DNA of 64,000 bases from Herbaspirillum rhizosphaerae (GTDB lineage Bacteria > Pseudomonadota > Gammaproteobacteria > Burkholderiales > Burkholderiaceae_D). Each line of letters starts with the position of its first letter. Position 1 is the first letter of the stretch. The position numbers and the translations under genes were made by a program. The stretch is taken from positions 1-64,000 of the forward strand of contig NZ_LFLU01000021.1 of NCBI RefSeq assembly GCF_001189965.1, in the 5' to 3' direction. Below, in pieces: positions 13,386 to 41,750 of the stretch. The notes beneath the pieces are model-generated. The model was not told where the DNA came from, ran no database searches, and was given only the letters and a program-made list of their open reading frames with translations.

Positions 13386-14708
13386 TTATTTTATGGTGTC
13401 AGGCTCTGCATGCTGCTCTGACAGTATCTCATTCTGCCTTGCCGCGTAATGTTTCAGGAAGTCGGCACCCAACACGCCTTGCGCCGTCGATAACCTAGTC
13501 GCCAATCGATAACGGGCATGAACATCGTCAATCTGCCGCTCCGAACCCATGGGCGTTTCCAATTTCTTGACGGCCGCCGCCCAACGCGTTGCATTGAACG
13601 CCAATTGCGCGTCGTTTGGAGTCCAGTCAGCACCCTGGTCAAAAAACTCTATTACGATCTGACGCAATTCCTGCGGAGTGTTTTCATAAAACACATAGTT
13701 ATCCCGAGGGTGGAACGCATGCTGCGCCCATGGAGTTTTCGGCCACTCCATCGGTGCGAGAAAGCGTTTGTCCGACTTCGAATAGACGTGCTTCAGTATT
13801 CCCACATCGCGCTCTTTTTGCGGATATCCCAACAGCCAACTATACATATTGGTCTGGATAATCGGTCGTTGGAACATGATAGCGATGTCGAGAATACCGG
13901 ACTGCATTCCTATATAGGTGCGGCACTCCTTGAGGAGATAGAGATCCATCAACTCGCTTTTTTGCGGCGTAAAGGGATAATCAATAACCTGTGGCATGCT
14001 GGGAAGACGCTTCATGGTGTCATCACCGATACGCACCACCCAGCCACCGCGCCTGGTGATTTCTTCTATCGCAGGAATATAGTTGTCAATGGTCGCGTTA
14101 CGCTCAACGGTCTGGTAGTCATTGTAATAGCCGCCTTCCCTGACATGCAGGCAAACAAACCAGGCGTCAGAAGGCAATCCCATTTGAATTCGCTGACGCT
14201 GTGCAATTGCAAGCCGCTTCTTGGACAATGATATTTCCAAATTTTCTTTGGTCTGCTTATCCCATTCGTAGGCTCTAACAACGTCCCATGAAAAGGATTG
14301 CATAACGAGTTTGGGTTTCCAGAGCAGTTCTTGCCCGAGCATCGGTATGCGCGAATACTCGCTAAGCTGAATGCCCCAGTACTTATTGGTAATGATATGT
14401 ACGCCGCGAAAAAAACCAAAATATAGCGTAATCAACACGCAGCACACGGGATAAAGGGGATTGGAGGGAAGAAATGCCCTGTACTCCGATTGAAGATGAG
14501 CCATTTCCCGGTTTGGAATCCTCAGGCGCAACAAACCGGGCAGTTCGTAAGGAAACAGCACCACCAGTTTCTTTTTTTCGCGCCGCGCCTTCAGCAAACC
14601 GTAGTACAACTCTTCGCCAAAATTACCAATGGCGATAGGGTGAGGCAAGATAATGATCGTACCAGTCAATTTGCCAAGCCAATACAACAAGTGATGCAAA
14701 ATAGGCAT
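13386..14708 (-). CDS. TIGR04372-type putative glycosyltransferase
   Basis: About 440 residues resembling the poorly characterised TIGR04372 glycosyltransferase family found in polysaccharide loci. The family-like features are IIILPHPIAIGNFGEELYYGL near the N-terminus, VCLHVREGGYYNDYQTVERN, NYIPAIEEITRRGGWVVRIGDD, and YIGMQSGILDIAIMFQRP. The ATG at 14708 is preferred because AGGGAA lies about 8 bases upstream; a GTG at 14741 has no Shine-Dalgarno. No enzyme of this family has an activity I can name with confidence. Confidence 0.78.
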   Translation of the reverse strand: MPILHHLLYWLGKLTGTIIILPHPIAIGNFGEELYYGLLKARREKKKLVVLFPYELPGLLRLRIPNREMAHLQSEYRAFLPSNPLYPVCCVLITLYFGFFRGVHIITNKYWGIQLSEYSRIPMLGQELLWKPKLVMQSFSWDVVRAYEWDKQTKENLEISLSKKRLAIAQRQRIQMGLPSDAWFVCLHVREGGYYNDYQTVERNATIDNYIPAIEEITRRGGWVVRIGDDTMKRLPSMPQVIDYPFTPQKSELMDLYLLKECRTYIGMQSGILDIAIMFQRPIIQTNMYSWLLGYPQKERDVGILKHVYSKSDKRFLAPMEWPKTPWAQHAFHPRDNYVFYENTPQELRQIVIEFFDQGADWTPNDAQLAFNATRWAAAVKKLETPMGSERQIDDVHARYRLATRLSTAQGVLGADFLKHYAARQNEILSEQHAEPDTIK

Positions 14709-14820
14709 CAAGTATTCCCTTTTACCAAACAAAAGCGACACATCCGATTACTCGGTTGCAATTCATTTACATTGATCGCGAACAGGTTGAGATCGACAAC
14801 CGGTCAAGAAAAACCTGCTC

Positions 14821-15612
14821 TCAACTTAGAAGATTGTCGACGGCGACGCAAAGAGCACTGCCCTCTGCCTCACATACCTCAGACCAAGCACGCGCATTCT
14901 GCGGACTTGCGGGAAGGACGGGAAAGCTACGATTGGCCTCTCGCCAACTTGTGATGCTCCCGATGTCCCGATGATAGCTGGCATTTTTATAAGTATTGAT
15001 GCGACCAATCAGCCGTGGAATCAGCTCCGTACTCAGATCAATCTCCGGCTTCCCTTGGTCTTCCAATAAGCTCAGCACCGTCGGCTCGAAAATATAAACG
15101 GCGGCGTTGGCCAGATTGCCCGGGGGAGAAGCGACTTTCTCGTGGAACGCGTGTACGAGCCCCTGTTGATCAAGTTCAACAATACCGCACGACTGAGGAT
15201 CATCTGACTCAAACACCATCATCGTCATTTCGCCATTTGCAGGACGCAGGCTGTGTGCTCGGATGAAGTCCTCTGCGTCGAAGATGGTCAGGTTGTCTGC
15301 ATGTGCAACTAAGAAGGCTTCCTCTTCAAAGAAATCCCGATTTTTCAATACCGTACCGCCGGTTCCCAATAATACCGGCTCATGCACAAGGGTAACCCAT
15401 GGCATCCAGCTGCTACTCTCCAAGAAACGTAGTACAGGTTCCGGCATGTAGTGAGTATTGATCAATACTTTATCAATACCATGACCAACCAGGATTTCCA
15501 TCCAATAGTCGAGCAGAGGACGCCCATGAATAGGCACCATGCATTTAGGCAAATAGTTGGTCAAGGGGCGCAAGCGAGTCCCGAGGCCCGCAGCCAGAAG
15601 CAAAGCACGCAT
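14821..15612 (-). CDS. Sugar-1-phosphate nucleotidyltransferase (HddC-like)
   Basis: 263-residue nucleotidyltransferase that would activate a sugar-1-phosphate with an NTP. The pyrophosphorylase signature LAAGLGTRLRPLT is at residues 6-18 with the PKCMVPIHGRPLLDY loop following, LLGTGGTVL near 82-90 and VAHADNLT (D at the metal site). It is shorter than RfbA and RmlA homologues and resembles mannose-1-phosphate or heptose-1-phosphate guanylyltransferases such as HddC. It follows the HldE-like kinase/nucleotidyltransferase fusion after only two bases, which favours a heptose-type substrate. That substrate is inference. Confidence 0.82.
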   Translation of the reverse strand: MRALLLAAGLGTRLRPLTNYLPKCMVPIHGRPLLDYWMEILVGHGIDKVLINTHYMPEPVLRFLESSSWMPWVTLVHEPVLLGTGGTVLKNRDFFEEEAFLVAHADNLTIFDAEDFIRAHSLRPANGEMTMMVFESDDPQSCGIVELDQQGLVHAFHEKVASPPGNLANAAVYIFEPTVLSLLEDQGKPEIDLSTELIPRLIGRINTYKNASYHRDIGSITSWREANRSFPVLPASPQNARAWSEVCEAEGSALCVAVDNLLS

Positions 15613-15614
15613 CT

Positions 15615-17150
15615 CTAATCCGCAAGTTCCTGCGCCATGTCACGCTGCGATAAGGGAATGTTACCGACCCGGCTTACCTGACACGCGGCCGCAATCGACC
15701 CCAGATACATGCTTTGCCATATGTCAGCCCCCACCGCCATCGCCATGGAGCAGCAAGTCAATAAACTGTCGCCTGCGCCAGCCGTATCTTTAGGTGAGGT
15801 ATTGAAGGCAGGCAATCGATCCGTTAGCCATTCGTCGGGATTGACTGAGGAAGCATGGGCGATAATGCCTTCCGCTCCCAAAGTCAGTAAAATGTTTGCT
15901 GCCTGTGATTTCTCTCGCAGTTTTTCCGCAAGCACCACCAGCCCCGCGTTGTAATCGCGCACGGCAAGTCGTGCTTCGCGCTCGGTGGGCGTCAACAGCA
16001 TCATTCCTTTGAACCTGGACACGTCGCCCATCTGCGAAGAGGATTGACTGTCGGCCACCATCGGAATGCGCCGGCGCCGACATTCCTCACTGATCTCGTC
16101 GACGACCGACTGCGGCAGACAACCATAATTGAAGTCTGAAAAAATCAGGAGGTCGGATGACTTCAGAGCTGCTTTCACCGATTCCACAAAGCGCCGCGCC
16201 AACTGTTGCTCGAGTTCATGCTGACGCAAATGACTGACACGCAACAAGGTCTTGCCCGAAGCCCGAAAACGCTGTTTCAACGTAGTGGGACGACTGTCAT
16301 CTTCGAATACCGAGGCCGTTACACCATACTCATGTAATTTGTCCCGCGCGAATATGGCGGACGCGTCGGCACCAGATACTGAAAAATAATTGACTTCGGC
16401 ACCCATCTCTCGTGCATGTGAAGCCACGATCGCGGCCCCGCCGATGAACCGCTGGCTCTGGATTGGCGTCACGACCAAAGTCGGATCCTCCTGCGACATT
16501 CCCAGCGCTTCGCAGTTCACGTATTCGTCAACAATCAGGTCACCCAGCACGGTTACCCGAAAGCCCTTGAACTTCGCCATGATCGCGCGTAAATCAGCCA
16601 TGGAAAAACCGTGACGCTCCAGATAATCAGTGGGGCGAATGATGGAAGACAAATTCGGTTCGAAAATCTCTTGCTTGAGCAAATCCATTGAAGAGAAACG
16701 CATTTCACCTGAGCTGAACAGCAACTTCCCACCATAAGCATCGACAGCGGCCTGCTCCGGATTGAAATGCGATTCATGTTCTCCCCCCTTAACAACCACT
16801 GCCGGCTTCAGATCGCTGATCAATGTTTCAACGGAGGTATGCATGACAAAAGCGAAATCGACAAATCCAATCGCCTTGATGCCATCGAGTCGAAGCTGCT
16901 CCGGAAGCAACACTCCTTCAACATCGTCGTTCGCGACGCCGACCACAAGACAATCACCGCATTCCGCCGCGAATCGCAACAGACGAAGGTGACCAGGATG
17001 GACGGTGTTAAAGTTGCCAGCCACAAAAACAACGCGCCTGCCGCTGGCAGTCACGTTTTTGATGTCACGAATGACGCTATGATTTATCGACGAAATATCG
17101 CTCAAAATGCCCAACCTGTTAGGTAAAAACGCCTGCCAATATGCTGACAT
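15615..17150 (-). CDS. HldE-like fusion with reversed order: nucleotidyltransferase then PfkB kinase
   Basis: 511 residues. The N-terminal domain (about 38-165) is a RfaE/HldE-type nucleotidyltransferase with VAGNFNTVHPGH at 43-54 (the HxGH site is H51-H54) and VVKGGEH. The C-terminal domain (about 195-505) is a ribokinase/PfkB sugar kinase with VLGDLIVDEY, the GGAAIVASHAREMGA block and the catalytic anion-hole motif DTAGAGDS at 455-462. Canonical HldE, which phosphorylates D-glycero-D-manno-heptose-7-phosphate at C1 and adenylylates it, has the kinase first. Here the order is swapped. The same two chemistries on a heptose or related sugar phosphate are likely but unproven. Confidence 0.83.
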   Translation of the reverse strand: MSAYWQAFLPNRLGILSDISSINHSVIRDIKNVTASGRRVVFVAGNFNTVHPGHLRLLRFAAECGDCLVVGVANDDVEGVLLPEQLRLDGIKAIGFVDFAFVMHTSVETLISDLKPAVVVKGGEHESHFNPEQAAVDAYGGKLLFSSGEMRFSSMDLLKQEIFEPNLSSIIRPTDYLERHGFSMADLRAIMAKFKGFRVTVLGDLIVDEYVNCEALGMSQEDPTLVVTPIQSQRFIGGAAIVASHAREMGAEVNYFSVSGADASAIFARDKLHEYGVTASVFEDDSRPTTLKQRFRASGKTLLRVSHLRQHELEQQLARRFVESVKAALKSSDLLIFSDFNYGCLPQSVVDEISEECRRRRIPMVADSQSSSQMGDVSRFKGMMLLTPTEREARLAVRDYNAGLVVLAEKLREKSQAANILLTLGAEGIIAHASSVNPDEWLTDRLPAFNTSPKDTAGAGDSLLTCCSMAMAVGADIWQSMYLGSIAAACQVSRVGNIPLSQRDMAQELAD

Positions 17151-18396: not shown

Positions 18397-19148
18397 TGTC
18401 CTGTCCTGGGAAAATCTCTGATAATCGATTCGTGGCTTCGCAGCGTCAATCCGCCATCGACCACAATATTTTGACCGGTAATATAGGCAGCCTGATCGCC
18501 TGCAAGAAACATGATGGCATTGATGATGTCTTGCGATTTACCGGCGCGGCCAAGCGGTATGAAGCGCTCAAACCGTTCCGTAATCCAACCGTTCTGCTTA
18601 TAGTATTCCTGCGCCGCATCTTTGATGACCACACATGGCGACACAACGTTGACGCGAATGCCTTTGTGACCAAGCTGCAAGGCATAGTAACGCGCCAATT
18701 GCACCAAGCCCGCTTTGCTGACGTGGTAGCCAAGATCCTGTTCCGGCGCGATGTAATGGTCTGCGATGGAGCTGACCATTACGATGCCGTTTCCGGCTTC
18801 GTTTTCGCTGAAGTAGGCACGCTCGAGCAGATGGTCAATCGCCACTCTGGTCGCCGTCAGCGCCACCGACAAATCGGTTTCAAACGCATCCGTCGACGAG
18901 CGATTGCGCTGCATGAAAACGATGCTGCTTACTTTTCCGTGCATATCCACGGCCAGATCCAGCGCAGAACGCAATGCACCAACATCGCTTACATCCACAG
19001 TATGAAGGCCCAGGCGTGACGGCGTTGGCTCTGCTGCGTGGTTGCGCCCGAACACCGATACCCGATAGCCGGCATCGAGCAAATGCTGTACGAGGGCACG
19101 CCCGGTTCCGCGCGTGCCTCCGACAACAATGTAATGCTTGTCAGCCAT
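18393..19148 (-). CDS. Short-chain dehydrogenase/reductase
   Basis: 251-residue classical SDR, likely an NAD(P)-dependent reductase of a keto-sugar or related metabolite. The cofactor motif is GGTRGTG (10-16). The catalytic residues are S126/S127 and Y141-x-x-x-K145 (YHVSK), followed by the IRVNVVSPC strand and GQNIVVDGG at the C-terminus. The gene starts 8 bases inside the end of the upstream C-methyltransferase and overlaps the downstream methyltransferase by ATGA. The substrate is unknown. Confidence 0.87.
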   Translation of the reverse strand: MADKHYIVVGGTRGTGRALVQHLLDAGYRVSVFGRNHAAEPTPSRLGLHTVDVSDVGALRSALDLAVDMHGKVSSIVFMQRNRSSTDAFETDLSVALTATRVAIDHLLERAYFSENEAGNGIVMVSSIADHYIAPEQDLGYHVSKAGLVQLARYYALQLGHKGIRVNVVSPCVVIKDAAQEYYKQNGWITERFERFIPLGRAGKSQDIINAIMFLAGDQAAYITGQNIVVDGGLTLRSHESIIRDFPRTGQ

Positions 19149-20391
19149 TCCGGACTATCCTGAATTCCGGCACCGGCACTGCGAAACAACCACCCTGATC
19201 AAGATAGGCTTGGTGCTTTTGCATGAAGGTCTCGGCGAAACGCCATGCGAGCACGAGTACATAATCCGGCTTGCGCTCGTAAATTGCAGACGACGGCAGA
19301 ACCGGCAGATGCAGGCCGGGGCTGTACCGTCCCTGTTTGGCCAGATTGTCGTCAACCAGATAATCGAGGTACTCACCAATCTCGAAATGATAGATCAGAG
19401 TCGTGCCGGTGATCGATGCACCAAAACCTGCGACTGTCTTTCCATCCTTTTTGGCTTGTTTCAAGAATTCCAAGGTCTGCTGTTTCAGTACATCAATTTT
19501 CGCCGCGAAAACATCATAAGTTTCCTTGCGATAGATCCCCTTGCTTTCTTCTTCAGCCAGCAACTGCGCCACCGAACCGTCCTTTTGCATCGGACCGCCC
19601 GGACGCTGAACAAAATAACGCAGCGAACCGCCCTTGGTAGCAACGCGCTCGATGACCACCAACTCCAGCCCGACGCTGGCAAACAAGGCCTGGATCGGCT
19701 TGACCGAGAATGACGACAAATGTTCGTGGTAAATGAAATCGAACACCATGTTGTCGATCACATCAGCCAGATAATAGCTTTCAAAAATGAATACTCCATC
19801 GTCTGACAGCAGTACGCTGATGCCGTCGACCCAGGAGCGCAGGTCGTCGATGTTGGCAAATACATTGTTTGCCGTGACGACGCGGGAATGACCATGGGAG
19901 GCGACAATCTGTTTGGCAAGATCGTGTTCGAAAAATTTGCCGATGGTTTCGACGCCGCTGGCAGTTGCCTGCTCGGCAATATGTGCGGCGAACTCGACAC
20001 CCAGAACTTTCATCCCCAATCCTTTGAAGGAACGCAGCAACGTGCCGTCATTGGAGCCAAGATCCATCACCAGCGAGCCTGGCGCAACCTGGCAACGCTG
20101 CACGACATGCTCAGCATAGGCTTGAAAATGCGAACTGAGTCCGAATGAACTTTGCGTCACATAAATATAGCTGCCATACAACACATCGGGATCAATCACA
20201 TCAGTGATCTGAGCCAGACCGCACTGTTTGCACATGAACAGGTCGATCGGGTAGCTCGGCTGCACTTCATTCACGCGATCTTGGCTGACATAATCGTCAC
20301 CAATCGGAGTCGGCTTCAGCGCAAAAACCAGCTCAAGATCTTTGCTGGCACATGCACGGCAGTCCGTGCGTCGATGAATTATCTGCTTCAT
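19141..20391 (-). CDS. Zinc-containing sugar C-methyltransferase (TylC3/TcaB9-like)
   Basis: About 416 residues in the three-part layout of NDP-sugar C-methyltransferases: an N-terminal zinc knuckle (C11-x2-C14 and C54-x2-C57), a class I SAM domain (VMDLGSNDGTLL, 108-119), and a C-terminal Rossmann-like domain (VAGFGASITGTTLI). The block Y221-H-E-H224 matches the catalytic Tyr/Glu/His cluster known in TcaB9-type enzymes, which C-methylate a keto-sugar. The start at 20391 overlaps the upstream cupin gene by ATGA. It is homologous to the gene at 20929-22140. Confidence 0.87.
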   Translation of the reverse strand: MKQIIHRRTDCRACASKDLELVFALKPTPIGDDYVSQDRVNEVQPSYPIDLFMCKQCGLAQITDVIDPDVLYGSYIYVTQSSFGLSSHFQAYAEHVVQRCQVAPGSLVMDLGSNDGTLLRSFKGLGMKVLGVEFAAHIAEQATASGVETIGKFFEHDLAKQIVASHGHSRVVTANNVFANIDDLRSWVDGISVLLSDDGVFIFESYYLADVIDNMVFDFIYHEHLSSFSVKPIQALFASVGLELVVIERVATKGGSLRYFVQRPGGPMQKDGSVAQLLAEEESKGIYRKETYDVFAAKIDVLKQQTLEFLKQAKKDGKTVAGFGASITGTTLIYHFEIGEYLDYLVDDNLAKQGRYSPGLHLPVLPSSAIYERKPDYVLVLAWRFAETFMQKHQAYLDQGGCFAVPVPEFRIVRNG

Positions 20392-20936
20392 GACTTTCCT
20401 GATAAAGAATGGATTCGTTGATCGAGATCTCTGATATAGCGTTCTGCGGCAGCGACGTCGCTGCCATCGGGCGCCCAATCGGGAAACACCGTCGTGCCGG
20501 GCTGAAACGGACCGTTCGTCGTTTCATGAAATACCAGCACGTCGGAGCGAATGATCAGCGTGTGAAATATCGGCATTTCGACCCGGTCGTAAAATGCCAG
20601 TCCTGATGCATAGTCGCCCATCTCAATGACTTGCGTCACTTCGCCCGCATCGTCAAATACGACCAGATCGACGCGCCCCGAGATGACATGCATCGACTCG
20701 GATTTACCGGGATGCTTGTGAGGGCGGACATAAGCACTGCGCTCATGAATAATGAGCATTTCGTGCAATGTGTTTTCGGGCGAATTGTGCGCGCACAAAC
20801 GAATCCGGTTGCGCGGATTTCTGGAAGAAAGCTCTTCCAGATGATCGATGTCCGCGCGCGACGCAGTAACTATCTCAAGATCCGAATAAATGACTTCGGC
20901 ATTTTGAAATCGATATTTGCGCTCTTCCTCAAACAT
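20388..20936 (-). CDS. wbuC: WbuC-family cupin metalloprotein
   Basis: 182-residue cupin, common in O-antigen and capsule loci but without a firmly known activity. The family block is visible from RNRIRLCAHNSPENTLHEMLI to SAYVRPHKHPGKSESMHVISGR, whose histidines and glutamate would bind a metal. The C-terminal IFHTLIIRSDVLVFHETTNGPF and FPDWAPDG also fit WbuC. It lies between two related C-methyltransferases and overlaps both (4 bases downstream and 8 bases upstream), suggesting a role in making or editing the same branched or 6-deoxy sugar. The gene symbol reflects the family. Confidence 0.85.
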   Translation of the reverse strand: MFEEERKYRFQNAEVIYSDLEIVTASRADIDHLEELSSRNPRNRIRLCAHNSPENTLHEMLIIHERSAYVRPHKHPGKSESMHVISGRVDLVVFDDAGEVTQVIEMGDYASGLAFYDRVEMPIFHTLIIRSDVLVFHETTNGPFQPGTTVFPDWAPDGSDVAAAERYIRDLDQRIHSLSGKS

Positions 20937-22140
20937 GTTCTTTCCAGACCGGCAACAAACGGTAGCTTGGCGGCAACACAGACCAGAACTGGCCGCCTTC
21001 GCTTATCCATTTTGCATGCCTCTTCAGTACTTTTTCCTCGTTTTCGGTATTAACGGCCAGCAAACAAACATCAATGGAGTCGTCATACAGCGCATCACTC
21101 GGCTTCACCGGCAGTCGACCGCCCGGCATGAACTTGTTCTGTTTCTCAGGTTGATCGTCGACGATGATATCGATATTGCCCGCCATGTCTGCAAAATTGA
21201 GCAAGCAGTAAACACGTGCGCCTGCGCCATAAACGGCAATTTTTTTGCCAGCCTTTTTCAGGTCGCCAAGATAATTGTTCACATCACTCTTGAACGTAGG
21301 CCAGTAGGCAGCGTAATCCATGTTTTGCTGACGCAGCGCGGGCAGGTAATCAAGCGACAACGGTACGCTTTCCACCTTGCGGCCCAGTACAAAAATTCCC
21401 TCACCGCTGAACACGAAGACTTCGTCATGAATCATCTCCACGCCTGCCAGAGTCATGAAATGACGGAGTGTGTCGAGCGTAAAATAATTGACGTGCTCTT
21501 CCCACAGGCTGTAATCCTGGCAGCGCAGGTTGCAGCTGAAATTCGGCACTTCTATCAGTACGTATCCACCCGGCTTTACTAAAGTTTGGATCGATTGGGC
21601 GACACCGCGCAAATCGCTGATATGCTCAAGGTTCTGCCTGGTCAAGAACAGATCGAACTGCCCCCGCGTAGCGGCAATGCTTTTAGCCAGCTCAGGCGTC
21701 AGGAATTCTTGCATCACGTCGATGCCCTTGCCGATTGCCAGATCGAAAGCGTCTTGCGCCGGTTCGACGCCAAAGGTGTTCTTGAATCCCGCAACAGACA
21801 TTTCACGCAAAAACTCACCGTCGTTGCAGCCGATTTCAATAATCTTGGAATCCGATGCAATACCTTTCAGCGCCTTGATCATGTTGATCTGGTGCGATAC
21901 GTGCGGCTGGAACTTCCAAGCGCTGATCGTCACGTAATTGGCATAGAGTATCTCCGGAGGGCAAGAATCGACCAGTTGCGTCAAACCGCAATCGTCACAG
22001 AAAAACAGCCGCACAGGCCAGACCGGAGGCTGCTCCGTCGGACTTTCCAGATAGTGCTTCGAAACCGGGTGGCTACCGAAATCGATCAACTCGGTCAGCG
22101 CATGGCTGCCGCAAAGATTACATTCATGTTCAACAGTCAT
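20929..22140 (-). CDS. Second zinc-containing sugar C-methyltransferase homologue
   Basis: 403 residues with the same layout as the gene at 19141-20391: zinc ligands C7-x2-C10 and C48-x2-C51, SAM loop IIEIGCNDGEFL (100-111), and a C-terminal nucleotide-fold domain (IAVYGAGARVYCLLNFA). The catalytic block is W213-E-E-H216, so the Glu/His pair is kept but the tyrosine of the partner enzyme is tryptophan. It may use a different keto-sugar or a different ring position. The downstream cupin gene starts inside its last 8 bases. Confidence 0.85.
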   Translation of the reverse strand: MTVEHECNLCGSHALTELIDFGSHPVSKHYLESPTEQPPVWPVRLFFCDDCGLTQLVDSCPPEILYANYVTISAWKFQPHVSHQINMIKALKGIASDSKIIEIGCNDGEFLREMSVAGFKNTFGVEPAQDAFDLAIGKGIDVMQEFLTPELAKSIAATRGQFDLFLTRQNLEHISDLRGVAQSIQTLVKPGGYVLIEVPNFSCNLRCQDYSLWEEHVNYFTLDTLRHFMTLAGVEMIHDEVFVFSGEGIFVLGRKVESVPLSLDYLPALRQQNMDYAAYWPTFKSDVNNYLGDLKKAGKKIAVYGAGARVYCLLNFADMAGNIDIIVDDQPEKQNKFMPGGRLPVKPSDALYDDSIDVCLLAVNTENEEKVLKRHAKWISEGGQFWSVLPPSYRLLPVWKEHV

Positions 22141-22180: not shown

Positions 22181-22957
22181 TTACATTGTCGATTTGTTCG
22201 TGAATACCATGGTTATTTCGACGCTGACACGCGTCTGGTCGCCCATGTTCACAGCGCCGCCGTGCACGATTCCTTCGTTGAAGATCAGCATGTTGCCGGG
22301 TTCGGTCAACATCAGTTCGGCACCTATCGTTGCAACATCCTCGTCAATGATAGGCTTCATCCCGCCGGCACCGGCCGCCGCATGGTAGCGGTACTCTTTT
22401 TTATGAGAATCGGGCACGATCATCAAACCGTTTTTTCCGGGCTGCGAAAAAATCGGAATCCAGATCTTTACAGTCTCGGAACCAGGAGGAAACGCCTGAT
22501 CGTCCATGCCCATGACATCGTGGAACCATTTGTCCGCATGCAGCGTACCGACGTCGGTCGTTGCATTGGGCCTCACCAGACGCCAATAAATCTCTTCCCG
22601 CCCAACCTCATGCGTATTGCCGTAAAACACGTCTGAGATCGTGAAATCTCCGAGCTCATCATGCAAAGTCTGTAAGAAAGGCAAAACCCTGATTTTGCTG
22701 CAGCTTTCCCGGGGCAGACAGCGCGTTTCTTTTGGCCATAATTTTTCGTGCTGAAGCAAATGTGCCAACAAGTGATAATTGTCGATGCCGGCTTCCCTGA
22801 ACTGTGGCACGAGCTCAGGATGCTTGGCGCCGATAACCGATAGCCATTGCTCCGTAATCTCAGCACGGAATACCCCCAGCTCGAACGGCGTAAGCTGCAC
22901 GTCGCGCGAATATCCCGGCGAGTCAAAAATCTTGTTTTTCAGATTCAATAGGCTCAT
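22181..22957 (-). CDS. Phytanoyl-CoA dioxygenase-family (PhyH) protein
   Basis: 258 residues, a predicted non-haem iron and 2-oxoglutarate-dependent oxygenase. The HxD of the iron triad is in TLHADKWFH (near residue 138-140), and the distal histidine and 2-oxoglutarate arginine fit IVHGGAVNMGDQTRVSVE near the C-terminus. In glycan loci such proteins may hydroxylate a sugar or an acyl substituent, but no substrate can be named. It sits 35 bases downstream of a zinc-dependent dehydrogenase, so an oxidation series on one substrate is possible. Confidence 0.8.
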   Translation of the reverse strand: MSLLNLKNKIFDSPGYSRDVQLTPFELGVFRAEITEQWLSVIGAKHPELVPQFREAGIDNYHLLAHLLQHEKLWPKETRCLPRESCSKIRVLPFLQTLHDELGDFTISDVFYGNTHEVGREEIYWRLVRPNATTDVGTLHADKWFHDVMGMDDQAFPPGSETVKIWIPIFSQPGKNGLMIVPDSHKKEYRYHAAAGAGGMKPIIDEDVATIGAELMLTEPGNMLIFNEGIVHGGAVNMGDQTRVSVEITMVFTNKSTM

Positions 22958-24050: not shown

Positions 24051-24719
24051 TTACTCGAAATAGATCAGTGAATGGTCGCCGGTGTAACCGGTCTGCTTGA
24101 ACCACCAATCCCACTCTTCCGGGGTGCAGAAAGCCTCGCACGTTACCTGCCAGTACATGAGGTTGGCCTTCTCTGTTTCGTTGCGATACGACTCGACGCA
24201 CAAATATTTGCGCTTTCCGACACGCTCCATTTCACGCAAGGCCTTGTCTAGGTCGTAGTTGTGAAGGTTGTGCAAGGTCGTAATCGAGAAAACAAAATCG
24301 AAATAGTCGTCAGGGAATGGCAAGCTATTGGCGTTGGCGATCTGCAGGCGGTCCTTGATCTCTTCTTTGGCGTTTTCGAGTGCGTAAGTCGACACATCGA
24401 TTCCGTGGATCTCAAGACCTGGCACCAGCAAGGACATTTCATACAACAAGAAACCTTTTCCACAACCGATGTCGAGGACCTTGTCGCCGGCTTTCAAACC
24501 ATAGTGATCAATCATGGCCTGGGCTACCGGGGCCCAGCGTCCCGGCATGTAACGGTAGCCACCGTAACAGATGCGGCGGTCACCGTCCCAGTAGTCGAAG
24601 CCCCATTGCTTGGCCAGTGCAGCCGCCTTTGGTTTGGGAAATTCGATGTCGTTGACGCGCGCCAGATAATCGCGAGCCGTGCTTTTGTGGACAGAGGTAA
24701 GAAAGTCGATATATGCCAT
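24051..24719 (-). CDS. Class I SAM-dependent methyltransferase
   Basis: 222 residues. VLDIGCGKGFLLYEM (about 80-94) is the SAM-binding motif, HGIDVSTYAL the acidic loop, and FDFVFSITTLHNL the motif after strand 4. The N-terminal HKSTARDYLARV and GYRYMPGRWAPVAQAMI blocks are unusual and may define a subgroup. It lies 3 bases from both the kinase gene upstream and the dehydrogenase gene downstream, forming a tight unit. The acceptor is unknown. Confidence 0.82.
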   Translation of the reverse strand: MAYIDFLTSVHKSTARDYLARVNDIEFPKPKAAALAKQWGFDYWDGDRRICYGGYRYMPGRWAPVAQAMIDHYGLKAGDKVLDIGCGKGFLLYEMSLLVPGLEIHGIDVSTYALENAKEEIKDRLQIANANSLPFPDDYFDFVFSITTLHNLHNYDLDKALREMERVGKRKYLCVESYRNETEKANLMYWQVTCEAFCTPEEWDWWFKQTGYTGDHSLIYFE

Positions 24720-24722
24720 GAT

Positions 24723-25721
24723 TTATGTCAATCTGGATTGAAAAAATTGCCGTGTCTTGTCGAGCTGGATGCGCTTGCGCTGTTCCGGCATAGAGGTTGG
24801 ATTGGCAAATTGCCGACGTCGCGCCGCCTCCGGTAAGAACTCGTTGAGCATGATGCAGCACCATTTGATTTGCGAAGCCGGCAACAGCAAATGCGCCCTA
24901 GCTCGCAATGCTTCCGCACGACTGGAATAGCTGACGGCCTCCGAAATGAAATCATCGAAATAGATTTGCGGGACCGGTACTGCGGGCTGGCAGAAAAAAT
25001 CGCCGGCCATCTTGGCAGGATCGTCCCATCCGGCATATTCAAAATCGATGAAACACAGTTCGCCATCGTCTTTTAACAAGGCATTGTGAAAACCGAAGTC
25101 CGAAGGTGAAATACAGCGATCCGAGCTGTCCAGCGCCGGCACATCAGCAACCGCAATATGCCTGCGCTGCTCCTGCCACGCCGCCGATAGTTCACCGATG
25201 AGCGTTTGCGCTTCCCGATCAATTTCATCCTGGCCCGGCAACGCCTGCAATTTGGCAAGGCGGCGATCCACTGTCGTCAGATGCTGCTCGATATCGAAAC
25301 AGGCCTCAGAAGCCGGCGGCAACTCCTCGCCGCGATCGGCGCCAGCGTTCAGGTTGGCGATAAAGCCGGCCGCTTTCAATACATACTCCCTATTCAGCTG
25401 CGCGACGCCCAGCTTGGCCCCCTGGATGAACTCATAAATGCCTACGTGCTCTTCAACACTGCAGGCAATCGGCTTCGGTACTATCGTCAGGCCCAGCTTG
25501 GCGGCATAAGAAAGAAACGCATATTCGGCGCCCAATCGGTCACGCGTGTCTGCCGCGTCATTGAAATAGGCCTTTGCCACGAATTTTCCAGCATCGCTGT
25601 CGACCGCAAAGACACGGTTGTTACCACCGCCATCAATCGCGGACAAAGAGATCTCGCCGGGGTTCAGGCCTTGGGCGTTCAACAATCCGGTGATCGTCGC
25701 CGTTAGTTCTTTGCTCGCCAT
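24723..25721 (-). CDS. Aminoglycoside/choline-type phosphotransferase
   Basis: About 332 residues with the protein-kinase-like fold of APH/ChoK enzymes. A glycine-rich ATP loop region (DGGGNNRVFAVD) precedes the lysine of KFVAKAYF. The catalytic loop is SPSDFGFHN with the aspartate and asparagine kept, and the metal-binding FIDFEYAGWDDP follows. It probably phosphorylates a sugar or small alcohol rather than an antibiotic. The ATG at 25721 gives a 19-base overlap with the HAD gene; an in-frame start at 25754 would intrude further. Confidence 0.8.
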   Translation of the reverse strand: MASKELTATITGLLNAQGLNPGEISLSAIDGGGNNRVFAVDSDAGKFVAKAYFNDAADTRDRLGAEYAFLSYAAKLGLTIVPKPIACSVEEHVGIYEFIQGAKLGVAQLNREYVLKAAGFIANLNAGADRGEELPPASEACFDIEQHLTTVDRRLAKLQALPGQDEIDREAQTLIGELSAAWQEQRRHIAVADVPALDSSDRCISPSDFGFHNALLKDDGELCFIDFEYAGWDDPAKMAGDFFCQPAVPVPQIYFDDFISEAVSYSSRAEALRARAHLLLPASQIKWCCIMLNEFLPEAARRRQFANPTSMPEQRKRIQLDKTRQFFQSRLT

Positions 25722-26323
25722 TTTTCTTCGAAAAATGCCTGGATCTCCGCCCAACTGATGAAGCGCGCCGTTACACCTTCGGCGTCGTGATTTTGCTCCG
25801 GGTCGAACAGAAGCCGCGATGTTTTTGCGGGATAGCCGGGCATTTTCAGGATTTCAGGCAGGTCGTCGATGAAGTAATCGCAATCACAAGCAGCGATGCG
25901 CGCGATTTTTTCTTCCTTGGTCAATTCGAAAAAGACACAATCTTCGGCCAGCAAGGGCTCTGCCTCGCTACGCAGGGCCACATCGATCCAGCCGGCGGCG
26001 GCGGCGTGCAAATCGTACTTCGGCCCCAAGAACGGATGCTTGGTCTTGTGGCTGACGATTACGACTTCCGCACCGCTAGCACGCGCGCGACGAATGAAAT
26101 CGACTACGCCCGGATAAGCGTCTGCATCTTTCATACGAGCACCGTAAACATAACCCTGCATTTCAGTGAACGCGGGCTCATTGCCAATTTTACGCAGGTA
26201 ATCTCGCACGGCGACCTTGGACACGGGTGTGTCGGCAGGCACCAGCGCTTTTTCAACAGCTACCATGTGAAACAGCGAATCGTAAGTAACGATCGTGTTA
26301 TCGAAGTCCAGACCGATACGCAT
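25703..26323 (-). CDS. HAD-superfamily phosphatase
   Basis: About 206 residues. Motif I is DFDNTI close to the N-terminus (nucleophile D and acid/base D), motif II is the serine of VIVSHKTKH, and motif IV is the acidic pair of YFIDDLPEI. The cap region is small. It likely removes phosphate from a small metabolite. Because it lies between the transketolase and the kinase genes, a sugar-phosphate substrate such as a heptose bisphosphate is possible but not shown. The start at 26323 is one base from the stop of the upstream gene and begins with the conserved MRIGLDFDNT. Confidence 0.8.
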   Translation of the reverse strand: MRIGLDFDNTIVTYDSLFHMVAVEKALVPADTPVSKVAVRDYLRKIGNEPAFTEMQGYVYGARMKDADAYPGVVDFIRRARASGAEVVIVSHKTKHPFLGPKYDLHAAAAGWIDVALRSEAEPLLAEDCVFFELTKEEKIARIAACDCDYFIDDLPEILKMPGYPAKTSRLLFDPEQNHDAEGVTARFISWAEIQAFFEEKWRAKN

Positions 26324-26324
26324 C

Positions 26325-27257
26325 TCAGGCTGTCGCCTTTCCGAATGCAGCCTGCACCTTGGTCGCAATGTTTTCTGCCGTCAAGCCGTACTTGGCGCGA
26401 GCATATTCCTGGGTGCCGATTTCATGCATGAAACTGTCGTCGACGCCAAAGGCAACAAGACGCCCCTTTAGGCGCTCCTGCTGCGCCAGCCACTCGGCGA
26501 TGCTGCCACCGAGACCGCCGAGACGACTGTGCTCTTCCACCACGGCGACAATGCTGTAACCGGAGAAGGCTTGCTGCAAGGTTGCCTCATCCAACGGCTT
26601 GATCGTATGATAACTCTCAACGCGGGCGGTGATCCCTTGGGCCGCAAGCAGATCTGCGGCCTGCAAGACGGTCGGCAACAAGGTTCCTGTGCCGATCAAG
26701 CAGACATCGGCGCCTTCGCGCACAGTGATCGAGCGACCGATCTGGAAACTGTCGTCCTTTTTCGGAACGATGGCTTCGCCACGCTTGCCGATGCGAATAT
26801 ACACCGGGCCATCTTGCTTGAGTGCAGCGCGCAGGCATTGCCTCAATTCAACTTCATCGGCAGGCGCCATCACCGTCATATGCGGCAGCACGCGCATGAT
26901 CGCCAGATCTTCGCAAGAGTGGTGGGTAGGGCCCAGTTCTGCATACGACAAGCCGGAACCGGTACCGACGATGATAACCGGCACATTGTGATAACAGGCG
27001 TCAACGCGAATCTGTTCGAAGCAACGTGTGGTGGTAAACGGTGTGATCGTATAGATGACCGGGCGCAGTCCCGACAACGCCATGCCACCTGCCACTCCCA
27101 TCATGTTGGCTTCTGCGATGCCACAGTTGATGAAGCGGTCTGCACTGGCAGCCTTGAATTTGTCGAACAGCTTGTTGCCAATATCGCCGGACAACAGCAC
27201 AACTCGTGGATCGCTGACGCCGAGTTTGGTGATTTCATCTGCAAATGCGTTTCTCAT
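26325..27257 (-). CDS. Transketolase, C-terminal (PYR plus C) subunit
   Basis: 310 residues corresponding to the pyrimidine-binding and C-terminal domains of transketolase. The catalytic glutamate that activates thiamine diphosphate is E49 in GIAEANMMG. Other family features are LGPTHHSCEDLAIMRVLP and the C-terminal SRLGGLGGSIAEWL. Together with the gene at 27254-28081 it forms a two-gene transketolase, which moves two-carbon ketol units between sugar phosphates. The genes overlap by ATGA, as expected for subunits made together. A split form in a glycan locus suggests a dedicated biosynthetic role. Confidence 0.9.
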   Translation of the reverse strand: MRNAFADEITKLGVSDPRVVLLSGDIGNKLFDKFKAASADRFINCGIAEANMMGVAGGMALSGLRPVIYTITPFTTTRCFEQIRVDACYHNVPVIIVGTGSGLSYAELGPTHHSCEDLAIMRVLPHMTVMAPADEVELRQCLRAALKQDGPVYIRIGKRGEAIVPKKDDSFQIGRSITVREGADVCLIGTGTLLPTVLQAADLLAAQGITARVESYHTIKPLDEATLQQAFSGYSIVAVVEEHSRLGGLGGSIAEWLAQQERLKGRLVAFGVDDSFMHEIGTQEYARAKYGLTAENIATKVQAAFGKATA

Positions 27258-28081
27258 GCTGTTACTCCCAGTTCTTTATAGGCTGCCACCACTTCGTCGG
27301 CAGTCGGAATCCGGTAGTGCCAGTTGTTGTCATCTTCCATGAAAGAAACACCCTTGCCTTTAACCGTGTGTGCCACGACGGCAATTGGTTTGCCGACGTT
27401 ATTACGCTTACGGCCCAATATCTCCGTCAGTAGGGCCATGTCGTGCCCGTCGATTTCAATTGCATCCCAGCCGAATGCAGTCCATTTATCGACAAATGAG
27501 CCGACGGCCAGCCCTTCGCTACGGTCCGTCGCTTGCCATTTGTTGAAATCGACGATCGCCAATAAGTTGCCCGCGCGTTGAGCCGCGGCCATCATGGCAG
27601 CTTCCCAGACAGAGCCCTCGTTGCATTCGCCGTCGCCGAGCAACACCGTGACGTCGTAACTTTGCTTCTGGATACGACCGGCCAACGCCATGCCGAGGCC
27701 GATCGGCAACCCGTGCCCGAGCGAACCGGTGGCTGCCTCAATGCCGGCCAGATGATCTGGCGTGGGTGGATGCTCAGCGAAAATACCGCCATCCTTGCCG
27801 TAATCATTCAAGAGCGACTCTGGATAAAAACCTTTCAACGCCAACACTTGGAACAGCGCGGCCGCGCCATGGCCCTTGCTGAGAATAAAACGGTCACGAG
27901 CCGGATCCTTGGGCTTTGATGGATCAATTTTCATCGCGCTAAAATAGGCTGCGATCAGGATATCGACACAGGAAAGGCAAGAACCCAGATGCGGCGTATG
28001 CGTGTTATGCGAAGTCGAAATAATGCGACCACGAATTTCCGCCGCGATCTTCTTCAACGTAGTTATATCTGGAGTCATCAT
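27254..28081 (-). CDS. Transketolase, N-terminal (thiamine-diphosphate-binding) subunit
   Basis: 275 residues corresponding to the PP domain of transketolase. The thiamine-diphosphate/magnesium motif runs from G149-D-G151 (LGDGECNEGSVWEA) to N180 in IVDFNKWQ. SKGHGAAALF near 68-77 and GSLGHGLPIGLG are typical active-site blocks. With the following gene it completes the enzyme. The start is ATG at 28081 with a second ATG directly after it, and AAGAG lies upstream. It is preceded by a candidate promoter and a structured leader, so it may be expressed separately from the genes before it. Confidence 0.9.
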   Translation of the reverse strand: MMTPDITTLKKIAAEIRGRIISTSHNTHTPHLGSCLSCVDILIAAYFSAMKIDPSKPKDPARDRFILSKGHGAAALFQVLALKGFYPESLLNDYGKDGGIFAEHPPTPDHLAGIEAATGSLGHGLPIGLGMALAGRIQKQSYDVTVLLGDGECNEGSVWEAAMMAAAQRAGNLLAIVDFNKWQATDRSEGLAVGSFVDKWTAFGWDAIEIDGHDMALLTEILGRKRNNVGKPIAVVAHTVKGKGVSFMEDDNNWHYRIPTADEVVAAYKELGVTA

Positions 28082-28280: not shown

Positions 28281-29384
28281 TCAGAAAAAAGACTTGACTA
28301 CCTCGATAACATAATTCACCTCGGTGTCGCTTAGCTCCGGATAAATCGGCAAGCTGACCATGGTTTTTGCATACCGTTCTGCGTTCGGGAAATCTCCCAG
28401 CTTGTATCCCAATTGCTTGGCGGCATCCTGCAGGTGAATCGGGATCGGATAATGTACGCGGGTATCAACGCCGTTTTGCAAAAGATGCGCCATCAATGCA
28501 TCGCGACGTTCCGTGCGAATCACGAAGTTGTGATAAACACACTCTTCCCAAGCGCGATCTACCGGCACCTGAACATAATCGGCCAATCCGGCCGCGTAGG
28601 TTTGCGCAATAGAAAGACAGCGAGCATTCCAGTTATCCAGGTAACCGAGTTTGATTTCAGCGAAGGCCGCCTGCATCGTGTCGAGTCGCGAATTGAAACC
28701 CCAGATTTCACACTCGTCGCGATTGCGCAAACCATGATTGCGCAATTTCAGCAGCTTGGCGGCAAGCGCATCGTCGTCGGTGGTAATCAAGCCGCCATCG
28801 CCATAGACACCTAGATTTTTCAGGGGATGCAAACTAAAACCGGCGGCGTGACCCAAAGCGCCCGTGCGCTTGCCGCGATAGCGGGCGCCGATTGCTTGGG
28901 CGGCATCTTCGAGAACGAAGAGGTCGTGTTTCAACGCGATCGCGTTGATCTCGTCCATCGGTGCGGCGCGACCGGTCAGGTGAACGGGGATAATCGCCTT
29001 GGTGCGCGACGTGACGGCTGCTTCGACCAATTGCGGATCAATATTGAAATCATCGGCCACATCGACCAATACCGGCGTGGCGCCGACTGCGGCAATAACC
29101 CATGCCGACGCAATGAAAGAGTTGGTGGCAGTGATGACTTCATCGCCCGGCCCGATGTCGAGTGCCTTAAGCACCAGAAACAGCGCATCCGAGCCATCGG
29201 CGACGCCAAGAGCATGGCGCACGCCGATAAATTCGGCGACTTTGCGCTCAAACGATTCCAATCGGGCACCCATGATATAGCCGCCGCTGCGACCGACATC
29301 AACAAATGCCTTGGTCAGCTCAGGTTCGATGCTGCGGAACTGACGCGCCAGATCCACGAAAGGAATAACCATCTTCTCAACCAT
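28281..29384 (-). CDS. DegT/DnrJ/EryC1 sugar aminotransferase (first of a tandem pair)
   Basis: 367-residue PLP-dependent nucleotide-sugar aminotransferase. The Schiff-base lysine is in FSLHPLKNLGVYGDGG, the PLP-ring aspartate in LEDAAQAIGARYRG, and DGSDALFLVLKAL is the substrate-binding N-terminal block. It is clearly related to the gene just upstream (29377-30531), which shares HPLKN and GDGG, but the two differ through most of their length. The ATG at 29384 has AAGG about 6 bases upstream and overlaps its neighbour by 8 bases; an internal ATG at 29372 is less likely. The keto-sugar substrate is unknown. Confidence 0.87.
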   Translation of the reverse strand: MVEKMVIPFVDLARQFRSIEPELTKAFVDVGRSGGYIMGARLESFERKVAEFIGVRHALGVADGSDALFLVLKALDIGPGDEVITATNSFIASAWVIAAVGATPVLVDVADDFNIDPQLVEAAVTSRTKAIIPVHLTGRAAPMDEINAIALKHDLFVLEDAAQAIGARYRGKRTGALGHAAGFSLHPLKNLGVYGDGGLITTDDDALAAKLLKLRNHGLRNRDECEIWGFNSRLDTMQAAFAEIKLGYLDNWNARCLSIAQTYAAGLADYVQVPVDRAWEECVYHNFVIRTERRDALMAHLLQNGVDTRVHYPIPIHLQDAAKQLGYKLGDFPNAERYAKTMVSLPIYPELSDTEVNYVIEVVKSFF

Positions 29385-30531
29385 AGAATGCCTTGATCAA
29401 TTGAATCACGCGGTCTTGCTGCTCACGTGTGATGAATTCGTGTACTGGCAACGACAGCGCCGAGGCAGCGATCGCTTCCGTCACCGGGAAGTCACCCATC
29501 TTGTGCCCCAGGAAAGCCGCCGCGGGCTGCAGATGCATTGGCACCGGGTAGTGGACTTTCGCGTCGACATTATTCTCGACCAGATATTTCTGCAACATGT
29601 CGCGCTGTTCGCAGCGCACCATGTACAGATGATAAACCTGCTTCACGTCGGCTTCGCGCGCCGGAATAGTGATTTGCGGAATGTCGCGCAAACCATCATC
29701 GAAGTACTGCGAATTGGCGATGCGAGAAGCCGTGATGTGGTCGATCTTGCCCAGCATGTGTCGCGCAACCACGGCTTGAATGGTATCGAGCCGCGAGTTA
29801 TAGGCGAAGATGCGACATTCGTCGCGCCCTGCCAAACCATGATTGCGTAACAGACGCAGCTTGTCGGCCAGTTCGTCGGAATTGGTGGCGATGATGCCGC
29901 CGTCACCCCATACGTTCAGGTTCTTCAGGGGATGGAAACTGAAACAGGCGATAGTGCCCAGTTCGCCCGAATGTCGACCTTTGTAGCTTGCCTTGATTGC
30001 ATGGCAGGCATCGCTGACGATCGCCAGTCCGTGCTTCTTTGCAATCGCTTCGATGGCATCCATGTCGCAAGGCTTGCCGGACCAATGTACCGGCATGATC
30101 GCCTTGGTTTTCGCGGTAATTTTCTTTTCGATTTCGGCGGGATCGATGTTGTAGTCGTCGCGCGCATCGGCAAACACGGGCGTCGCGCCGGCGGTCACGA
30201 TGGCACCGATGGTGGCGTAAAAGGTGTAGGGCGTGGTGATGACCTCATCGCCCTTGTCGATACCCAGCGCCTTCAGGCTCAGGAACAATGCATCGGTGCC
30301 GCTACCGACACCGATGGCATGCTTGACGCCGTTGATGGCCGCAAACTCGGCTTCGACCTGATCGACTTCAGAACCGAGGGTAAAGTCGCCGCGACGCACG
30401 ACTTCCCGAATTTTGGTCCAGATCACCTCATGATCGGCAAACTGATCGTGCAAATAGTTATGATTGATCTCGAGCGCGCCGGTCTGGCGATATTGCTCGG
30501 GCAAGAAATTTTGAATGATAGGTGAAGTCAT
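29377..30531 (-). CDS. DegT/DnrJ/EryC1 sugar aminotransferase (second of a tandem pair)
   Basis: 384 residues, PLP-dependent sugar aminotransferase paralogous to the next gene. The lysine is in FSFHPLKNLNVWGDGG, the PLP aspartate in SDACHAIKASYKG, and GSGTDALFLSLKAL is the N-terminal block. The second half includes NHGLAGRDECRIFAYNSRLDTIQAVVA, which contributes to the active site of the dimer partner. It is about 30 residues longer at the N-terminus than its paralogue. It follows the epimerase gene after about 29 bases. The product is probably an amino- or diamino-deoxy sugar. Confidence 0.87.
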   Translation of the reverse strand: MTSPIIQNFLPEQYRQTGALEINHNYLHDQFADHEVIWTKIREVVRRGDFTLGSEVDQVEAEFAAINGVKHAIGVGSGTDALFLSLKALGIDKGDEVITTPYTFYATIGAIVTAGATPVFADARDDYNIDPAEIEKKITAKTKAIMPVHWSGKPCDMDAIEAIAKKHGLAIVSDACHAIKASYKGRHSGELGTIACFSFHPLKNLNVWGDGGIIATNSDELADKLRLLRNHGLAGRDECRIFAYNSRLDTIQAVVARHMLGKIDHITASRIANSQYFDDGLRDIPQITIPAREADVKQVYHLYMVRCEQRDMLQKYLVENNVDAKVHYPVPMHLQPAAAFLGHKMGDFPVTEAIAASALSLPVHEFITREQQDRVIQLIKAFYG

Positions 30532-31556: not shown

Positions 31557-32146
31557 CACTGCGCCTCAGGCTTATTCTCACAAAGCCATTGCATGATCAT
31601 ATGCCCGACAATGACCTGCAAATCCTCTGAAATCTGCATATCGTTCACATCAAAGTGAATCGGAAGGTCAGCCATTGCTTTCGCTTTGCCGCCGCTATAG
31701 CCCAGAATCGCGCAAGAGCGCACGCCCATGGCGCGAGCCTGTTCCAGCGCTTTCAGAATGTTCGGAGAATTTCCGCTGCCCGACAGAACAATCAGCAAAT
31801 CCCCCTTTTGGCCTTGTACGGCCAACTGCTCGGAGTAAATGCTGTCGTAGCCGACGTCATTGGCCAGGCAGGTAATGACCGCAGCGTTAGCCGCCAGCGA
31901 CAACACGCGCATGCCGCCGCCGGTGCGTTTGGCGATGCCGTAGAGGTAGTCGTTGGCCAAATGGATAGCGTTGCCCGCACTGCCGCCGTTCCCGCAAAAA
32001 AACACTTGTCGGCCGTTAGCCCAGCAATCGCGCATGTCTTCCGCCAGTTGCGCCACGCCGGACCAGTCTGCAGATGCGAGTACACCTTGCAGGCGACTCG
32101 CATAATCACTGAAAAAAGCAGTTGGTAACTTGTTGTTTTCACTCAT
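31556..32146 (-). CDS. SIS-domain sugar-phosphate isomerase (GmhA-like)
   Basis: About 196 residues with one SIS phosphosugar-binding domain. VFFCGNGGSAGNAIHLAND and VLSGSGNSPNILKALEQAR are the phosphate-binding loops. The layout and the histidine of AIHLAND resemble GmhA, which converts sedoheptulose-7-phosphate to D-glycero-D-manno-heptose-7-phosphate. The GmhA catalytic glutamate after that histidine appears to be aspartate here, so the activity may differ. The start at 32146 overlaps the upstream epimerase by ATGA. With a transketolase and an HldE-like enzyme in the same locus, a heptose role is reasonable. Confidence 0.82.
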   Translation of the reverse strand: MSENNKLPTAFFSDYASRLQGVLASADWSGVAQLAEDMRDCWANGRQVFFCGNGGSAGNAIHLANDYLYGIAKRTGGGMRVLSLAANAAVITCLANDVGYDSIYSEQLAVQGQKGDLLIVLSGSGNSPNILKALEQARAMGVRSCAILGYSGGKAKAMADLPIHFDVNDMQISEDLQVIVGHMIMQWLCENKPEAQ

Positions 32147-41648: not shown

Positions 41649-41750
41649 CTTTTTTCGTTTCCGCTCTGACAAAAAATACTTGCCTACGCAATCGAGAATC
41701 CGCACGCCGGCGGAGAAACAGGAACGAGAGCGTAAAACAAGTTGGACAAC

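Follow-up and report, generated by a model that had tools for sequence, protein, structure and literature searches.

A swapped-order nucleotidyltransferase–PfkB kinase fusion and its recurrent gene neighborhood in Herbaspirillum rhizosphaerae and other Pseudomonadota

Results

The window analyzed here, a 64,000-nucleotide stretch of Herbaspirillum rhizosphaerae DNA, carries on its minus strand an open frame (15615–17150) for a 511-residue protein in which a nucleotidyltransferase domain precedes a PfkB kinase domain. Profile searches placed an N-terminal CTP_transf_like/HldC-type nucleotidyltransferase domain at residues 31–159 (16674–17060, minus strand; TIGR02199, E = 3.5e-17 for the whole protein) and a C-terminal PfkB/HldA-type kinase domain at residues 191–508 (15627–16580, minus strand; TIGR02198, E = 2.3e-55). 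Both superfamily profiles scored above their gathering cut-offs (CTP_transf_like PF01467, 38.4 versus 21 bits; PfkB PF00294, 71.5 versus 25.8 bits). The HxGH motif of the first domain is HPGH at residues 51–54 (16989–17000, minus strand), and the GAGD motif of the second lies within the PfkB catalytic motif DTAGAGDS at residues 455–462 (15765–15788, minus strand), exactly where a sequence-only reading had reported them. With the same profile library, the kinase of E. coli K-12 HldE (b3052) fell at residues 5–312 and its nucleotidyltransferase at 332–473, which bears out the claim that the fusion has the opposite order; it likewise departs from the HldE model NF008454, in which the kinase is N-terminal and the nucleotidyltransferase C-terminal.

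All curated heptose models scored the protein below their cut-offs: 187.9 versus 345 bits for the kinase part (TIGR02198, HldE/HldA kinase), 62.6 versus 181.5 bits for the nucleotidyltransferase part (TIGR02199, HldE/HldC nucleotidyltransferase) and 156.7 versus 521 bits for the whole protein (NF008454). The N-terminal domain is, by TIGR02199, an HldE-type nucleotidyltransferase as had been proposed, though below that curated cut-off. Among PDB sequences, the kinase part was best matched by the heptose 7-phosphate kinase 4e84 (residues 196–499, E = 1e-17) and the nucleotidyltransferase part by 5x9q, a “putative cytidylyltransferase” (residues 39–159, E = 9e-9) that we take to be B. pseudomallei HldC. 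A fold model from a four-row alignment had a mean pLDDT of 37.9, too low for use. Conservation is lacking over the first ~15 residues of the frame (17106–17150), where the nearest relative (L004) has a stop, so translation may begin after the first ATG, possibly at a TTG downstream of it.

Two bases after the stop codon of the fusion starts a gene for an RmlA/HddC/MurU-like NTP_transferase (14821–15612, minus strand; PF00483, E = 1.5e-34), the neighbor already recognized in the sequence-only reading; it scores 71.4 bits against the curated HddC cut-off of 300. The remaining genes of the cluster lie at higher coordinates, all on the minus strand. A sugar C-methyltransferase-like protein of the Methyltransf_13/14 type (CMT1, by Pfam; 19141–20478), a WbuC-family cupin (20388–20936; TIGR04366, over cut-off) and a second C-methyltransferase-like protein (CMT2, by Pfam; 20929–22140) are followed by MT222 (24051–24719), which recurs beside the fusion and was read as methyltransferase-like from its sequence, by an APH-family phosphotransferase (24723–25754; PF01636) and by a HAD-like protein, a possible sugar-phosphate phosphatase (25703–26368; PF12710 at 24.7 bits, under the cut-off of 27), which also recurs. 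The two chains of a split transketolase are encoded by two adjacent genes, the C-terminal chain (TKC) at 26325–27257 (PF02779, PF02780) and the N-terminal chain (TKN) at 27254–28081 (PF00456); the best PDB match of the latter is 6yak, a split-transketolase N-terminal chain (E = 1e-58). Profiles further identified two DegT/DnrJ/EryC1 aminotransferases (DegT1, 28281–29384; DegT2, 29377–30531), a dTDP-glucose 4,6-dehydratase-like NAD enzyme (Epi1, 30561–31559), a GmhA-like SIS sugar-phosphate isomerase (31556–32182) and an NAD-dependent epimerase/dehydratase (Epi2, 32143–33093). A TIGR04372 glycosyltransferase, over cut-off, is encoded at 13386–14741, and a PhyH-type dioxygenase with a weak likeness, under cut-off, to TIGR04324 (“sporadic carbohydrate cluster”) at 22181–22957.

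The sequence-only reading had suggested a database search for this domain order. We sampled Pseudomonadota systematically, counting a fusion wherever a colinear match of both domains reached E = 1e-30 or better, and found the swapped order in 50 of 398 genomes and 22 of 213 genera, at 56 places. The fusion occurs in 10 of the 34 genomes of the Herbaspirillum genus, in 0/26 other genomes of the family and in 4/40 other genomes of the order (G065, G075, G087 and G094). Seven hits were opened among 35 plasmid records; two of them (L008 and L009) are swapped, one from Azospirillum and one from Solidesulfovibrio, both annotated “PfkB family carbohydrate kinase”. The other five (H1, H4–H7) were nearly full-length by match, and reading their frames gave the canonical order in each. 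Within the search terms used, whose results were partly off-topic, we recognized no description of the swapped order in the open-access literature. Swapped-order enzymes are thus widespread but apparently unstudied.

We then cut the proteins into domains for phylogenetic analysis, giving 50 distinct swapped fusions and 36 distinct canonical fusions besides stand-alone rows. With a distant outgroup, the swapped rows remained one clade (support 97) in the kinase tree; in the nucleotidyltransferase tree, the canonical clade (96) was flanked by two distinct branches, one formed by the window lineage (12 rows, 90) and one by the remaining 38 swapped rows (92), a split that is unsafe given very long branches. 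Because the outgroups rbsK and coaD gave end branches of 9–10 changes per column, the trees were rebuilt unrooted without outgroups and long rows (nucleotidyltransferase tree: coaD, SAN_L007 and SW_L019 removed; kinase tree: rbsK, CAN_L132 and SW_L019 removed). In these trees, made by a quick method, one branch with an SH-aLRT of 100 separated 49 swapped from 38 other nucleotidyltransferase rows, and one branch, again with an SH-aLRT of 100, separated 49 swapped from 42 other kinase rows. Both domains are therefore split from canonical HldE, HldA and HldC in the unrooted trees. A stand-alone nucleotidyltransferase of the swapped kind was found nowhere among the matches listed for 200 genomes, where every match of at least 82 bits lay in a frame of at least 440 residues (that of G290, with 973 residues, being counted by frame size alone).

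The split in both trees, together with this lack of stand-alone genes among the matches listed, makes the order look old and stable. A recent rearrangement of HldE is disfavored by the trees, which would fit either an ancient change of order or a second fusion; the window's fusion is not unique, and it is no recent reshuffle of HldE. The sequence-only reading had pointed to an independent fusion. We put such an origin, a second joining of separate HldA-like and HldC-like genes rather than an old order change within HldE, just short of an even chance. It gains from the separation of swapped and canonical rows in both domain trees and loses from the absence of an unfused gene among the matches listed, while the very long rbsK and coaD branches keep the rooted trees from being decisive. 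Being a statement about history, it can be combined with any of the readings of function considered below.

Conserved positions were compared, in E. coli HldE numbering, among the window lineage (A-core, 12 rows), two further swapped groups (A2, 6 rows; B, 32 rows) and the 36 canonical enzymes. In the kinase domain, G17, D22, K106 and the last Asp of the GAGD motif (D264) are present in all 50 swapped rows. R31, found in 36/36 canonical enzymes, is G in 50/50 swapped rows; N55 (32/36 canonical) is A, S, V or I and N59 (35/36 canonical) is H or Q in every swapped row; and D120 (36/36 canonical) is retained among swapped rows only in A2. The A-core rows are partly nearer to HldA, since they keep E35 and R118 as canonical enzymes do, unlike B and A2. 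In the nucleotidyltransferase domain, the H, G and H of the HxGH motif (H353, G355 and H356), R396, K431 and G432 are present in all 86 rows, 50 swapped and 36 canonical. Outside A-core, the canonical rows and the swapped B and A2 rows all have the KG lysine K384 and, save for one B row with H for R, the RP pair R388–P389; in A-core, K384 is replaced in 12/12 rows and R388 is gapped in 12/12, in a KG/RP loop that is itself gapped and less certainly aligned than the rest of the domain. D350 is N (FD to FN) in 12/12 A-core rows. By docking prediction, HldC contacts heptose 1-phosphate through the motifs TNG, NSD, KG, EXTP and KGG, as given in PMC7993394; the window's fusion retains KGG alone. 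As both domains carry replacements at positions that are invariant or almost so in the 36 canonical enzymes, the fusion is likely to differ from the heptose enzymes in sugar specificity, a possibility raised in the sequence-only reading, and the losses in the nucleotidyltransferase domain would point to altered or reduced activity in A-core.

The substitution rates temper any view of the fused nucleotidyltransferase as a decaying domain. Its dN/dS was 0.08–0.10 (3 of 8 pairs computable; dS > 1, saturated), a range that weakens the idea of decay, and that of the kinase part was 0.02–0.06 (5 of 8 pairs computable; dS > 1). Constrained in this way, and with HxGH, R396 and K431–G432 retained, the domain is not plainly dead. 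In the window lineage, it might have become a non-enzymatic part that senses sugar phosphate or nucleotide, or that docks the kinase or the neighboring nucleotidyltransferase. FN in place of FD and the loss of the KG lysine and RP pair in 12/12 rows would suit such a role, as would a dN that is higher in the nucleotidyltransferase than in the kinase part in 7/8 pairs; we nevertheless regard it as improbable, with HxGH and K431–G432 kept in 12/12 rows and dN lower than in the kinase part in 1/8 pairs.

The interest of the fusion lies more in its recurrent gene company than in its domain order. From 71 fusions seen (the 56 places in the 398 genomes, 13 further ones and the 2 on plasmids), we examined the neighborhoods of 46, mostly better-scoring ones, comprising 12 A-core (window included), 6 A2 and 28 B loci; as controls we used the surroundings of canonical HldE at 20 places, 15 of which lie in genomes that also bear the fusion. 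The stretches covered 30 kb for the window, 25 kb for the two plasmid loci and at most 20 kb for the others, and the neighbor profiles were built from window proteins and their hits in the same loci, so that they are partly self-trained. In counts that are not independent, given short contigs in many cases and kinship among the loci (with five near-copies), a strong TKN match (over 300 bits) occurred at 20/46 fusion loci (7/12 A-core, 0/6 A2, 13/28 B) versus 1/20 controls; with weaker matches, some of them probably of the E1 type, the numbers were 9 A-core, 1 A2, 16 B and 1 control. HAD was found at 15/46 fusion loci (5 A-core, 0 A2, 10 B) versus 1/20 controls, APH at 14/46 (5 A-core, 0 A2, 9 B) versus 1/20, the GmhA-like isomerase at 24/46 (7 A-core, 4 A2, 13 B) versus 6/20, and DegT at 4 A-core, 0 A2 and 8 B loci versus none of the controls. 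Six of the 46 fusion loci had none of the 13 neighbor families sought.

At five B loci of a single genus almost the complete window set recurs, namely the isomerase, two dehydratase-type genes, HAD, APH, TKN and TKC, two DegT, MT222, a C-methyltransferase and WbuC, although their fusions are only 29 percent identical to that of the window. One control (L146) has HAD, APH and both split-transketolase chains adjoining a canonical HldE, the swapped fusion of that genome lying on another contig. At L008, L088, L091 and other loci, the two-chain thiamine enzyme resembles E1 (pyruvate dehydrogenase); it is annotated so in L008 and is judged so elsewhere from weak scores. Among the 34 genus genomes, 24 had some TKN match, which was strong (over 500 bits) in G017 and in 6 of the 10 fusion bearers; the isomerase (E = 1e-60 or better) was present in all 10 fusion bearers and in G017, with a weak match (1.9e-28) in G020. 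G017 thus has isomerase and transketolase with no fusion match, an absence that is uninformative because, of 20,000 flanking bases retrieved on one side, 19,000 are N.

We next compared the metal ligands of the isomerase. Zinc in Neisseria GmhA is bound by H61, E65 and H183 together with Q175 from the neighboring chain (PMC5387315), which we took as E. coli H61, E65, H180 and Q172. In the isomerases linked to the fusion, E65 is D, Q172 is E and H61 is retained in 24/24, and H180 is retained in 19/24; in those beside canonical HldE, the ligands are unchanged (H, E, Q, H) in 6/6. The isomerase of the window, with ligands H, D, E, H (E65D and Q172E in E. coli numbering), scores 115 bits against the GmhA cut-off of 209. 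With these ligands altered, the presumed first enzyme of the pathway has changed along with the kinase. The five near-copy B loci (L106, L108 and L110–L112) are the ones that carry Met for the zinc-ligand His180.

Sixteen of 60 genomes checked hold the fusion, and 15 of the 16 also have a full-length HldE match (485–532 bits, 7 of them over the cut-off of 521). The sixteenth is the window's own genome, where HldA and HldC are matched by separate genes (395 and 168 bits) and a second GmhA-like gene, located elsewhere, scores 202 bits, just below the cut-off of 209. These data support the fusion as an extra paralogue beside a canonical heptose gene set, and since genomes that bear it already have HldE or HldA plus HldC, it would serve something else. 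An ordinary ADP-heptose synthase, a plain duplicate of HldE with a neutral domain order, would account for heptose enzymes being the best profile matches of both domains, for the intact catalytic motifs and for the GmhA-like isomerase close by. We hold it to be very improbable, against the HldA, HldC and GmhA-like genes already in the genome, the replacement of R31 and N59 in every swapped row, the absence of four of the five HldC motifs predicted by docking (PMC7993394) and the altered metal ligands of all linked isomerases.

Finally, we assessed the coupling between the fusion and the RmlA-like gene. This gene is present at 12/12 A-core, 1/6 A2 and 2/28 B loci and at 0/20 canonical HldE controls; beyond A-core, one match is strong (L103, 290 bits) and two are weak (63 bits). 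Within the genus, it is present (E = 1e-25 or better) in exactly 10 of 34 genomes, all with the fusion, a co-occurrence among related genomes that is no test of independent events. The coupling is that of one clade and so perhaps arose in a single event. The sequence-only reading had credited the locus with two nucleotide-transfer activities. Two such genes do adjoin, whereas activity of both is made doubtful by the missing KG lysine and RP pair of the fused domain in the Herbaspirillum lineage; given that loss, one nucleotidyltransferase may have replaced the other, and the RmlA-like neighbor is the first candidate for the nucleotidyl step in this lineage.

RmlA-like enzymes usually take alpha-phosphates. 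HldE nucleotidyltransferases accept beta- but not alpha-mannose 1-phosphate (PMC10948575), and this difference in preference is a difficulty for a hand-over and lends two parallel routes their strongest support. In these, the fusion would phosphorylate and nucleotidylate one sugar, and the RmlA-like enzyme would activate a second that another kinase, such as APH, supplies. Retention of HxGH, R396, K431 and G432 in 12/12 rows of the window lineage and purifying selection on the domain also agree with parallel routes. We consider them unlikely, if less so than a sensing or docking part: the KG lysine and RP pair are missing in 12/12, the RmlA-like gene occurs within the genus solely alongside the fusion, and APH is present at 5/12 loci of the lineage compared with 12/12 for the RmlA-like gene.

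Discussion

The domain order, the catalytic motifs, the replaced residues, the recurrent neighbors and the coupling to the RmlA-like gene are direct observations. We read them, with a probability of roughly 0.6, as a distinct and old HldE-like family of nucleotidyltransferase–PfkB enzymes that would work in a pathway of its own leading to a nucleotide-activated surface sugar, the RmlA-like gene of the window lineage probably carrying out all or part of the nucleotidyl transfer. The individual reactions, their order and this hand-over are what we infer, and the sequence isomerase, C1 kinase, phosphatase, nucleotidyltransferase, tailoring is proposed by analogy with the HldE pathway (PMC10948575). 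The altered GmhA-like isomerase would convert a ketose phosphate into an aldose phosphate, the PfkB domain of the fusion would phosphorylate carbon 1 and the HAD protein would remove the distal phosphate. A nucleotide would then be added, in the Herbaspirillum lineage wholly or partly by the RmlA-like neighbor, and the dehydratase/epimerase, DegT, C-methyltransferase and split-transketolase genes would oxidize, aminate, methylate and branch the sugar. The split transketolase may transfer a hydroxyacetyl group to a keto sugar or else supply the starting ketose phosphate. The recurring gene set probably makes an unusual surface sugar, and the product of a dedicated pathway may be a nucleotide-activated sugar, probably a branched or amino one, whose nucleotidyl transfer would have moved at least partly to the neighbor.

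Among known systems, HldE (RfaE; heptose 7-phosphate kinase/heptose 1-phosphate adenylyltransferase) has both domain families and the GAGD and HxGH motifs in common with the fusion, which differs from it in its opposite order, its scores below all curated cut-offs, its replaced residues, its other neighbors and the canonical genes alongside. The same domain families make up HldA and HldC, which are separate proteins in Burkholderia pseudomallei and Neisseria (PMC7993394); in the fusion they are joined, and the genome that carries it also contains matches to HldA and HldC. The split-gene transketolase of Carboxydothermus (PMC7661550; compare 6yak) and those of the miharamycin and amipurimycin pathways, for which hydroxyacetyl transfer to a keto sugar was proposed without an in-vitro test (PMC12247030), consist of two chains as in the window, whose pair differs in being encoded alongside a swapped HldE-like enzyme in a surface-sugar cluster. 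The wps-2 exopolysaccharide cluster of Actinoplanes missouriensis likewise has separate genes for both transketolase parts, two DegT and a methyltransferase (PMC13390465). It is likened to the window by description only, and the main text of that source contains “PfkB”, “heptose” and “SIS domain” 0 times.

In some respects the cluster also follows the logic of the GDP-heptose route. That route runs through GmhA, HddA, GmhB, HddC and DmhA/B, with a GHMP-type kinase in HddA, and shares isomerase, kinase, phosphatase, RmlA-like nucleotidyltransferase and dehydratase steps with the cluster; the latter differs in its PfkB-type rather than GHMP-type kinase and in an RmlA-like gene that scores 71 bits against the HddC cut-off of 300. 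PMC9834719 mentions the hdd, gmh and dmh gene classes. A more specific proposal is that fusion, altered isomerase and split transketolase form an undescribed pathway, found across many Pseudomonadota, to a nucleotide-activated higher-carbon or C2-branched amino sugar, in which the fused nucleotidyltransferase of Herbaspirillum has given up catalysis to the RmlA-like neighbor and may have another role. We offer this tentatively, as an idea rather more apt to fail than to hold.

If our main reading is true, a second, reversed-order family with changed residues and neighbors of its own provides a handle on a surface-sugar pathway and a natural test of how one nucleotidyltransferase fold replaces another within a pathway. 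For annotators, the label “PfkB family carbohydrate kinase” calls for caution, as it can conceal a two-domain enzyme. HldE itself has been studied in depth, and relatives of it are being pursued as antibiotic targets (PMC7993394).

Two further features of the window concern its surroundings. GC content is 50–53 percent between 8000 and 24000, whereas the opening 8 kb and the closing 20 kb of the window have 58–66 percent, a contrast of the kind seen with surface-sugar islands gained by horizontal transfer. The swapped-fusion cluster is directly adjoined, at 33175–41705, by a legionaminic-acid-type set in which LegB, LegC, NeuC, NeuB and NeuD score over their curated cut-offs, accompanied by a PtmA-like SDR, a CBS–NTP_transferase fusion and a PseF-like cytidylyltransferase under cut-off.
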